Assembly (NCBI GenBank): GCA_009691045.1 | Contig: SHWC01000008.1 | Coordinates: 1-62,761 of the forward strand | Direction: 5' to 3' | Source of the DNA: Alphaproteobacteria bacterium | GTDB taxonomy: Bacteria > Pseudomonadota > Alphaproteobacteria > UBA828 | Length of the DNA: 62,761 bases | Shown here: piece by piece, positions 32,344-35,954 of the stretch | Layout: each line of letters opens with the position of its first letter | How positions within the stretch are numbered: position 1 is the stretch's first letter | Made by a program: the position numbers and the translations under genes | The notes under the pieces: model-generated | What the model was told of the DNA's origin: nothing | Seen by the model: only the letters and a program-made list of their open reading frames with translations | Database searches by the model: none

Positions 32344-33690
32344 ATGCGGTGGTTTGCCAAACGCCCTGTCTCGGCCGCCCTCGCATTGATTGTTCTGGTG
32401 CTCGGTATGGCGAGCGCGATGCCCGCCAGCGCCACGACCATGGTTGAAGAAATCAAAACGCCAAAGGGTTTCACCCTTTGGTATGTCCGGGAGGCGACGA
32501 TCCCGGTGATTTCGCTGCAACTCTATTTCAAGGGCGGCGCGGCGCTCGATCCGGCCGGGAAAAATGGTTTGGCGCGCTTCGCCTCGAGCCTGTTCGATGA
32601 GGGGGCCGGCGATCTCGATTCGCAAACCTTTCAGCGCCGCATCACCAATTTGGCGATCGGCCTGAAGTTCGACGCCGGGCTCGATTCTTTTTCCGTCGAT
32701 CTGCAGACGTTGACCGAGAACCGCGAGGAGGCATTTCAATTGGCGGGGCTCGCGCTTTCATCACCGCGCTTCGATCAAGATGCTGTTGAGCGCGTGCGGG
32801 CGCAGTTCCTTCATATTATTCGCGAGGGCGAACAAGACCCGGCTAAGCGTTCCGCGCAAGGCTGGTTTCGCGAGGCCTTTGGCGATCATCCCTATGCCGC
32901 GCCGAGCGATGGCACCAAAGCGAGCATCACAAGTATCACCATCGATGATCTCAAGGTCTTCGCGCGGGATCGCCTGGCGCGCGACAATGTGGTGATTGGT
33001 GCGTCAGGCGATGTGTCATCGGACGAAATCGCACGGCTGGTCGATTTGGTGCTTGGCAAGCTACCGGAGAAGGCCGTCGCGGCGACGCTGCCCGACGTCG
33101 CATTGCCGGCAGCCGGTCTCATGCGGATCGAACAACTTGATGTGCCGCAAAGCGTGGTCTCGTTTGGGCTCAATGGGTTTAAGCGTGATAACCCCGATTT
33201 TTATGCCGCCTATGTGATGAACCATGTGCTGGGTGGCGGCGGTTTCACGTCGCGGCTCTATGCCGAGGTGCGTGAAAAGCGCGGCCTTGCCTATTCGGTC
33301 TATAGCTATTTGCAGCCGATGCGGGCGGCGGGCCTTTTTATGGGTGGTGTTGCGACGCAAAATGACCGAGTGGCCGAATCGATTGCGCTCATTCGGGCCG
33401 AAATCGCGCGCATGGCAAAGGATGGCGTGACCGAGGCGGAGCTCGCGGCGGCCAAGCGCCATCTCACCGGCGCCTTTCCGCTTAATTTCGATACGGGCGA
33501 CCAGATTGCCGACATGCTGGTTGGCATGCAGGTGGATCGCCTGGGCATCGATTATTTCGTGAAACGTAATGCGTATCTCAACGCTGTAACGGTCGCGGAT
33601 GTCGCACGCGTCGCCAAACAATTGCTCGATCCGGAAAAGCTGGTCATCGTCGTTGCGGGAAATCCGGTTGGGCTCGTTGCGACGCCCTAG
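32344..33690 (+). CDS. M16 family protein, non-catalytic partner
   Basis: 448 residues, with an N-terminal signal peptide (about 1-30). The zinc motif is lost: the matching stretch reads LARFASSLFDEGAGD. The C-terminal R/Y motif used for substrate binding is kept in GGFTSRLYAEVREKRGLAYSV. It is therefore the expected partner of the preceding HxxEH protein. Its stop overlaps the stop of the convergent ligase-fusion gene by four bases. Confidence 0.9.
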   Translation: MRWFAKRPVSAALALIVLVLGMASAMPASATTMVEEIKTPKGFTLWYVREATIPVISLQLYFKGGAALDPAGKNGLARFASSLFDEGAGDLDSQTFQRRITNLAIGLKFDAGLDSFSVDLQTLTENREEAFQLAGLALSSPRFDQDAVERVRAQFLHIIREGEQDPAKRSAQGWFREAFGDHPYAAPSDGTKASITSITIDDLKVFARDRLARDNVVIGASGDVSSDEIARLVDLVLGKLPEKAVAATLPDVALPAAGLMRIEQLDVPQSVVSFGLNGFKRDNPDFYAAYVMNHVLGGGGFTSRLYAEVREKRGLAYSVYSYLQPMRAAGLFMGGVATQNDRVAESIALIRAEIARMAKDGVTEAELAAAKRHLTGAFPLNFDTGDQIADMLVGMQVDRLGIDYFVKRNAYLNAVTVADVARVAKQLLDPEKLVIVVAGNPVGLVATP

Positions 33691-35954
33691 ACCGTTTCTT
33701 TACGTGATAAAAGAGAGCGGTTTTTCAAGGCGCGTCTGAGCGCGTCGGGGCGGGCGATCAACGCACCGATGAGCAGCCAAAAGACGCGCTGATAGGCGAC
33801 GTCGTGCGTCAGCGAGACGACGGCGAAAACCACAATGCATGCCAAGGCGGTGACGCTGGATTCGTCGCTCACCCAGCGAGGCTTTCGAAGGGTGTATACA
33901 ACGATTAGGCCTAGAGCCGAGAGGAACGTGATCAGGCCGACCGCGCCAAACTCAGCCATCAGCCAAAGGAATGTGTTGTGAATGACGAGCGGTGCGCCGG
34001 TCTTTGCAGTCCAATCGTGCATGAACGCACCGAGGCCGGCGCCGAAGATGGGGTAATCAAACCACATCCGCAAGCCGCCCGCGAGGCTGTCCATACGATC
34101 GGCTTGAATAAAGCCATAGCGTTCGACCGTTCGCAGACCCCAGCCGAATTGCATATTGGCGACCGAACCGCTCGCCGGTTCCGACACCGCGTTGCCAAAA
34201 GAGAATATGCCGGTAATGAGGGCCGCGCCGAAAGCCACATGCAAAAGGGGCTTCCGACATTTTGGGATCGCCGCGAGGAAGATCAACACAGCAAGCGCCG
34301 CCACGCCGACGCCACGCGAGCCGGTGAGATAGATCCCCCAAGCGAGTAAGCCAAGAACGACGCCCTGCAATACGGCACCGCGCCGACGATGCCATAGCTG
34401 GCGTCCGCTTACCGCAACTGCAAGGACAAGCAGGAGCACCATGGCAAAGGCATTCCGATTGCCGATCAGGCCGCTGAATTGAGTGGAGTACCAACCCATC
34501 GACTTTAGGGCCACTTCCGCGCTGAGAATGTAGGCCCCAACCCATTCGGTGAGCACGACCCCCGCACAGGCGATTACAAGCGCTCGAAAAAGGCTCCGCG
34601 TTCCGACTTGGCCAGCGGCGGCGGTGGCCAGCGCACCGGTCAATAAATAGGCGAGTACAATGCCAAGCCCGACCAAACGGTTATAAAGCGCCCAGTCGGT
34701 CAAACCGAACCGAATCCAACCGTGGAAAAATCCGGCGACCAGCGTTGCGCCCATGAGGCCGAGTGCAAGATTGAAGTGAGGAATCCGCCATAACGTTCTC
34801 GCCACGGAGTCGCGTAGAACGAAGAGCAACATGGTGAGCCCGGCGACGATCACGATCGGATCGGCAAGGTTCGCGGAGACCGAACTTTTGGTTGTCGGCA
34901 ATTGAACCTGAACATTGACGAGAATTGCGGCCAGCGCCGGGGCGAGCCAAGCCAAGGCGCGTATGGCGCGGCTGGTTCGCCGTTGACTTTCTCCGATGCC
35001 CGCATCGATCGCGCGCTGCGGTCGCGCGTTGACGAAGAACGCGATCGCCACATTGAGCAGAACGGCGATCAGGCTCAGAAGGCCAATGGTGAGGCCCATG
35101 GTAACGCCGATTTCCGAGGGTAGATTGCCGGCCTCGAAGACATAGCTGGCGGTGAGTTCTCGAATGCCCCAGCCGCCAAAGCTGATCGGGAACGATGCCG
35201 CCATCATCACGATGGTCGACGCAGCGACCAGTTTGGCGCTGAATGCAGCGTGGATGAGATTGGCGGCCACGGTGAGATAGGCCAAAATCATGCAGGCATG
35301 CATGGCAAAGGTAATGCCGAGAATCCGCCACCCGAGCGGTCCGATCGCTACCGAAAAAATCAGCCTGAGCTCGCGTTGCTGCTTGCGCCCAAAGGCCAAT
35401 TTAGTCGCCGTCACGAGAATGAAAGCCAGGATGGAGACAAAGACAGCCAGCATCGTGCCGGGTTTTTCGGCGATACTCAGCCCGCCCAAGGCAAGCAAGG
35501 TGCTGATGATCGCCAGCAAAAGAAGCATCGCCAATGAGGAGACGCGTTCGACGGCGGTGATGAGGAAGACGGTCGACGTCACGCTACGGCTATCGGCCAT
35601 AAGGGCGGCACGCGTCGCGCCTTGCCCAATAAAATTCATGAACGCCAAGCCACCCACAATCGACATGGTGTTGACGTAGAACGAACGTCTGAGTGACTGC
35701 GCGACGCCGAATTCCGATGCCAAATAGTGGAAGCGGAGACTGCTCATTATTTGATTGGCGAGAATGAGCGCGGTAGCGATGACAAATGTCCAGACCGAGA
35801 GGCCGCTGAACAAATTGCCGAGGCGTTGGTGGTCGTTGCTTAGAAAAACCGCGGCCAAAAGGCCGATCGCGACGGCGATCTGAACAGCGCGGTGCCGGCC
35901 AATGCGGACCGACAAAAAGCCGCTTGAGCGAACTTCAGGATTGCTTGCTGTCAC
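33687..35954 (-). CDS. Fusion: flippase-like (LPG-synthase TM) domain plus O-antigen ligase domain
   Basis: 755 residues from a GTG at 35954; about 18-20 hydrophobic segments. Residues about 20-335 match the lysylphosphatidylglycerol-synthase TM/UPF0104 flippase-like family, with the diagnostic SFPISFGGWGIRELTA (255-270). Residues about 360-745 match Wzy_C/O-antigen ligase proteins: GLIGNRNAFAMVLLL (495-509), LTGSRGVGVAALAVL (543-557) and, in the large loop, HNTFLWLMAEFG (659-670) holding the His expected for ligases. WaaL-type ligases join lipid-linked glycans to lipid A or another acceptor in the periplasm. A charged junction (310-330) separates the halves. There is no internal stop or frameshift, so the fusion looks genuine. 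It stands alone, convergent with the M16 gene. Confidence 0.82.
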   Translation of the reverse strand: MTASNPEVRSSGFLSVRIGRHRAVQIAVAIGLLAAVFLSNDHQRLGNLFSGLSVWTFVIATALILANQIMSSLRFHYLASEFGVAQSLRRSFYVNTMSIVGGLAFMNFIGQGATRAALMADSRSVTSTVFLITAVERVSSLAMLLLLAIISTLLALGGLSIAEKPGTMLAVFVSILAFILVTATKLAFGRKQQRELRLIFSVAIGPLGWRILGITFAMHACMILAYLTVAANLIHAAFSAKLVAASTIVMMAASFPISFGGWGIRELTASYVFEAGNLPSEIGVTMGLTIGLLSLIAVLLNVAIAFFVNARPQRAIDAGIGESQRRTSRAIRALAWLAPALAAILVNVQVQLPTTKSSVSANLADPIVIVAGLTMLLFVLRDSVARTLWRIPHFNLALGLMGATLVAGFFHGWIRFGLTDWALYNRLVGLGIVLAYLLTGALATAAAGQVGTRSLFRALVIACAGVVLTEWVGAYILSAEVALKSMGWYSTQFSGLIGNRNAFAMVLLLVLAVAVSGRQLWHRRRGAVLQGVVLGLLAWGIYLTGSRGVGVAALAVLIFLAAIPKCRKPLLHVAFGAALITGIFSFGNAVSEPASGSVANMQFGWGLRTVERYGFIQADRMDSLAGGLRMWFDYPIFGAGLGAFMHDWTAKTGAPLVIHNTFLWLMAEFGAVGLITFLSALGLIVVYTLRKPRWVSDESSVTALACIVVFAVVSLTHDVAYQRVFWLLIGALIARPDALRRALKNRSLLSRKETV

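Follow-up and report, generated by a model that had tools for sequence, protein, structure and literature searches.

A single 755-residue protein encoded in the window (the whole stretch of 62,761 nucleotides analysed here) joins a flippase-like N-terminal half to a C-terminal half of the O-antigen-ligase type, and comparison with its homologues indicates a genuine fusion of long standing that has been conserved in several Proteobacteria. Our preferred reading, to which we assign a probability of roughly 55%, is that the protein is a two-domain inner-membrane glycoconjugate transferase, in which the N-half would translocate a lipid, most likely a lipid-linked glycan, and the C-half would transfer the glycan in the periplasm.

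Table 1. Positions in the window of the fusion gene and of its domains, motifs and proposed active-site residues.
Feature	Position	Strand	Remarks
Two-domain gene, 755 aa	33687..35954	-	GTG start at 35954, stop 33687-33689
LPG_synthase_TM / UPF0104 (PplT, MprF-flippase-like) domain, residues 24-300	35055..35885	-	PF03706 E 7.6e-13
GGWGIRE motif, residues 260-266	35157..35177	-	P256, G261, G263, R265, E266 invariant
Wzy_C domain, residues 533-678	33921..34358	-	PF04932 E 8e-9; WaaL 7tpg profile match
N499-R500-N501	34452..34460	-	N499 and N501 invariant, 25/25 C-halves
GSRG, residues 545-548	34311..34322	-	R547 aligns with WaaL R191
R620, predicted large periplasmic loop (about 590-664)	34095..34097	-	aligns with WaaL R265; 25/25
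H659, proposed catalytic base	33978..33980	-	aligns with 7tpg H313; 24/25

The gene occupies the coordinates given in the preliminary description, which had omitted that it lies on the minus strand, and the frame is as clean as was claimed there: open over 755 residues from a GTG start. The quoted motifs (GGWGIRE, NRNAFA at residues 499–504, GSRG and the His of HNTFLW) all stand at the quoted residues. Both Pfam domains exceed their curated cut-offs, PF03706 with 49 bits against 33.4 over profile positions 3–300 of 302 and PF04932 with 35.9 bits against 31.7 over positions 2–149 of 149. By these matches the protein is a member of both families, which bears out the proposal that one chain joins flippase-like and O-antigen-ligase domains from two distinct, normally separate families. 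NCBIfam holds no model for it, and AlphaFold2, run on a five-sequence alignment, gave a low-confidence model only (mean pLDDT 40.8, pTM 0.38). Relative to a 66%-identical orthologue (locus L003), dN is 0.24 and dS 1.40, the two halves are conserved alike (65% and 67%), and the changes at the three codon positions number 211, 116 and 392, the third position changing most. The low dN relative to dS, together with the equal conservation of the halves, marks the gene as being under purifying selection over its whole length.

Full-length homologues are found well beyond this close relative. They occur in Thalassospira at 31–33% identity, and among 385 genomes of the class a five-member profile recovered them in 10, a count that includes the window's own genome and that of L003 (G001). 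With a wider profile, searched against genomes sampled from the phylum, two additional genomes of the class and two from a different class were recovered. Including Thalassospira, the total is 17 full-length proteins counting that of the window (16 further), beyond which there is one protein with a degenerate N-half (G125, L043). Among the 13 fusion members scanned against Pfam, PF03706 was recognised in all and PF04932 in 11; the plasmids searched held no homologue. In two genomes of one genus, G125 and G396, the architecture is extended to a triple fusion of LPG_synthase_TM, Wzy_C and a C-terminal GT4 domain (L042:8756-12124, 1122 aa; L044:7625-10927, 1100 aa), encoded in both cases within a glycan gene cluster. 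Other long frames of 638–766 aa (L080; G738:C5, G686:C3, G759:C1) were picked out by the N-half profile only; in these PF03706 is perhaps joined to a different partner.

The two halves also exist as separate neighbouring genes. In three genomes the flippase-like gene lies on the same strand directly upstream of the ligase-like gene, with a 4-bp overlap (G325), a 13-bp gap (G337) or a 4-bp overlap (G419) at the junction, and in G085 the halves are divergent neighbours. For three further relatives of the C-half no flippase-like gene was found alongside (two in G204, one of these at a contig end, and one in G034). At L054:340-2999, a relative of the C-half lacking such a partner adjoins a gene for a 446-aa membrane protein that appears Wzx-like by eye and has no Pfam match. 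Because the split C-halves were found with the C region alone as query, and the genomes counted hold only 1 to 4 PF03706 genes each, adjacency in four of the seven unfused cases is far above chance.

The two halves were placed in separate phylogenetic trees. One clade (100/100) of the N-half tree unites every fused N-half with the split N-half of G419, and the remaining three split N-halves group with stand-alone genes. In the C-half tree, G419 is again nested among the fused genes, next to G567 (100/100); the remaining split and solo genes form a group of their own (100/98). Several groupings are common to both trees, which we compared by eye and in which some deeper forks are weak: the window protein with L003 and Thalassospira (99/97 and 98/97), G567 with G419 (99/98 and 100/100), and also G390 with G645, G125 with G396, and G222 with G661. 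Given the single clade of fused N-halves and these common groupings, the simplest account of the sequences is an ancestral gene pair that was fused once and later split once (in G419), the halves having been inherited together. The functional coupling of the halves that the preliminary description had suggested thus gains support from both the adjacent split pairs and the groupings common to the two trees.

The C-halves are a subfamily distinct from the canonical Wzy_C proteins, since they score at least 245 bits where canonical Wzy_C proteins of the same genomes score at most 55, and the two sets are split in the C-half tree (91/86). Direct searches of PDB sequences with the single protein and with a 13-member profile gave nothing useful. 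A profile built from C-halves plus canonical Wzy_C proteins matched 7tpg, the WaaL ligase of C. metallidurans, at E 2.2e-17 and the oligosaccharyltransferase 9rmk at E 2.3e-13. In the WaaL alignment, R547, R620 and H659 fall opposite R191, R265 and H313 (7tpg numbering, counted along the printed alignment), which we take to be the active-site residues of WaaL. Across 25 C-halves R620 is present in all and H659 in 24, and position 547 is Arg in 21 and Lys in two; the WaaL-type active-site positions, two arginines and a histidine, are therefore kept. The conserved arginine of WaaL that holds Und-PP and its catalytic histidine have been described (PMC10449877), and the roles of the active-site residues are further supported by PMC12800693 taken with that work. 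The split C-half of G337 (L050:8330-9655) has Asp in place of the His, reading IDN for IHN.

The predicted membrane topology of the protein is consistent with such an active site. By averaged hydropathy, R620 and H659 share a single long loop with a net negative charge, and the C terminus that follows the final helix is positive, as for WaaL. The C-terminal GT4 domain of the triple fusions would need to lie on the cytoplasmic side, in agreement with this topology. WaaL uses lipid A-core as its acceptor, but the Wzy_C domain is common to Wzy polymerases and PglL/PglS transferases as well. Hence the C-half is best described as a predicted transferase, whether a ligase, a polymerase or a protein O-oligosaccharyltransferase.

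For the N-half, R74, R137, P256, G261, G263, R265 and E266 do not vary in any of the 20 sequences, fused and split, and are also found in stand-alone members of PF03706. Its motif is of the stand-alone UPF0104 type, P-x-x-x-x-G-W-G-x-R-E, and the split N-half genes match PF03706 with E values down to 4.7e-35. A search of PDB sequences with the N-half profile matched no MprF structure. Lipid translocation by this half would accord with what is known of the family. The MprF domain scrambles a wide range of lipids in vitro, among them a lipid whose head group is very large (PMC11980842), archaeal PF03706/UPF0104 relatives have been tied to glycosylation (PMC5898192), and in P. aeruginosa GpgF, a YbhN/UPF0104 protein in a glycolipid operon, is predicted to flip glucosaminyl-PG, its transport being still unproven (PMC12713373).

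Taken together, these features suggest the following mechanism, for which we infer the translocation, the C-half chemistry, the identity of the lipid, the acceptor and the membrane topology. The N-half (about residues 1–310) would be a polytopic PplT/UPF0104 domain that brings its lipid substrate, most likely the lipid-linked glycan donor, to the outer leaflet. The C-half (about 325–755), a Wzy_C-family protein, would act as a GT-C transferase in the manner of WaaL and take the glycan from undecaprenyl pyrophosphate at the periplasmic face, with R547 and R620 holding the pyrophosphate and H659 acting as base. Fusion might then provide selectivity by proximity, in that a promiscuous translocator feeds the transferase at its side. 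In the two GT4-bearing relatives, synthesis, translocation and transfer could all reside in one chain.

The genomic context of the family bears on this mechanism in both directions. Fusion genes or their split relatives lie among glycan genes in seven genomes (G125, G396, G111, G325, G419, G645 and G567), with neighbours (some named by eye) that include GT4, UDP-sugar dehydrogenase, cytidylyltransferase and asparagine-synthase-like genes, and in G567 a MurJ-like gene. The window gene is isolated from the glycan genes of the window, as the preliminary description stated; it stands alone, away from the glycan cluster, which counts against our reading. The relatives in three Thalassospira genomes are likewise apart from glycan genes. 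A further Wzy_C match accompanies the fusion or C-half relative in each of the 20 genomes searched. In the window's genome this is a canonical Wzy_C protein in a separate glycan cluster (L055, G000:C25:30000-49500), where by eye there are also a WecA-like transferase and a phosphonopyruvate-decarboxylase-like gene.

A more ambitious version of the mechanism is a single-chain assembly line for surface glycans, in which the UPF0104 domain would be a dedicated flippase for undecaprenyl-linked glycan, handing it directly to the fused transferase, and some members would add a cytoplasmic glycosyltransferase. One protein would then cover part of the Wzx/Wzy/WaaL route, and its flippase would not belong to the MOP superfamily. 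We regard this as tentative, with odds of being correct well below even. Wzx (PF01943) was not found in the window's genome (G000, 67% complete), and it is absent in the window's genus (G001, 100% complete) and in some other fusion genomes. Over the cut-off it is present in 8 of 14 fusion genomes; for the class the figure is 171 of 385. Wzx is thus not depleted, and the notion that the N-half simply replaces it is not supported.

Just as doubtful, in our judgement, is a reading in which the N-half moves another lipid, either an acceptor (a phospholipid or glycolipid glycosylated by the C-half at the outer face) or spent undecaprenyl phosphate on its way inward, and in which the product would be a periplasmic glycolipid rather than LPS. 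The characterised members of the domain do move phospholipids (PMC11980842), GpgF is predicted to act on glucosaminyl-PG (PMC12713373), and in fusion genomes Wzx is often retained and another Wzy_C protein is present in every case, the latter being the one that would handle O-antigen. On the other side, the sequence offers no pointer to a phospholipid acceptor, and several members lie in polysaccharide clusters of the Wzx/Wzy kind.

Less probable again is that transport has been lost from the N-half, which would instead act as a scaffold in the membrane, or as a regulator, for the Wzy_C transferase. The partnerless C-halves of G204 and G034 favour this idea, as does the second copy in G125 with its degenerate N-half; these cases imply that the C-half can do without the N-half. 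It is difficult to reconcile with the invariance, across 20 N-halves and in stand-alone proteins as well, of the arginines, glycines, proline and glutamate listed above. In the degenerate copy (L043:8960-11176), PF03706 is matched only at positions 118–289, below the cut-off, and the residue corresponding to R547 is Leu. Finally, the possibilities that the N-half consists simply of additional helices in a long ligase, or that the frame is an artefact of assembly or annotation, are ruled out, as two families rather than one were matched, PF03706 is recognised on its own and as separate genes in the split pairs, and isolates and MAGs from many families carry full-length homologues; we found nothing in their favour.

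In its own lineage the gene is probably a sporadic lone insertion. It ends convergently, with a 4-bp overlap, with an M16-type peptidase gene at 32344-33690, and is flanked by two M16-peptidase genes on one side and by a sugar-phosphate-isomerase-like gene followed by mutL on the other (neighbours named by eye). The orthologue L003:5255-7522, on a contig labelled Rhizobium sp. Q54, is in the same place with the same arrangement. By contrast, in one other genome of the genus (G002) and four of the family (G003, G005, G007, G010) the isomerase-like gene comes immediately after the M16 gene, and the spacer between them lacks the fusion gene (L129, L130, L131, L132 and L133). When 20 other genomes from the genus and family were searched, one proved to have a homologue, and this, with the empty site, points to an insertion, possibly acquired horizontally.

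How a lipid-linked glycan passes from its flippase to the polymerase or ligase is little understood, since these are separate enzymes. A fusion provided by nature, whose halves are elsewhere natural operon neighbours, offers one purifiable protein in which to test the coupling of translocation to transfer, and also whether UPF0104/PplT domains move glycan-bearing prenyl lipids. In the literature searched we found no experimental work on such a fusion protein.

The domain architecture itself is already known and not new here: a sentence in a 2025 study of MprF (PMC11980842), citing a preprint by Hauser et al. 2022 (doi 10.1101/2022.03.11.483950), names O-antigen ligases and glycosyltransferases as frequent fusion partners of the MprF transport domain. 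The likeness of our protein to these PplT-domain/O-antigen-ligase fusions, the same two domains in one protein, is drawn from that sentence. Subject to the content of the preprint, the present work adds the split pairs, the groupings common to the two half-trees, the mapping of the active site and the triple fusion. Among characterised systems, WaaL itself (7tpg) aligns with the C-half and lacks a flippase-like domain. In AglD of Haloferax, which belongs to a glycosylation pathway, PF03706 is likewise joined to a glycosyltransferase (PMC5898192), but AglD is archaeal and the partner domain is a cytoplasmic glycosyltransferase, as opposed to the periplasmic Wzy_C transferase predicted here. MprF, the lysyl/alanyl-phosphatidylglycerol synthase and flippase, similarly has an N-terminal PF03706 translocator fused to the enzyme that handles its lipid, and the P, G, G and E of its P..GG.G..E motif align with the N-half of the window protein. 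Its enzyme, however, is a cytoplasmic aminoacyl transferase (PF09924), for which the window protein has no match. Of the MprF Glu-Arg pair between the GG.G..E motif and TM8, the fusion N-half keeps the Glu (E266) and, in alignment with the MprF of G567, lacks the TM8 Arg, which in that MprF stands in a YRLLY stretch. In the fusion family R265 stands beside E266 (GWG.RE), as it does in stand-alone UPF0104 proteins.
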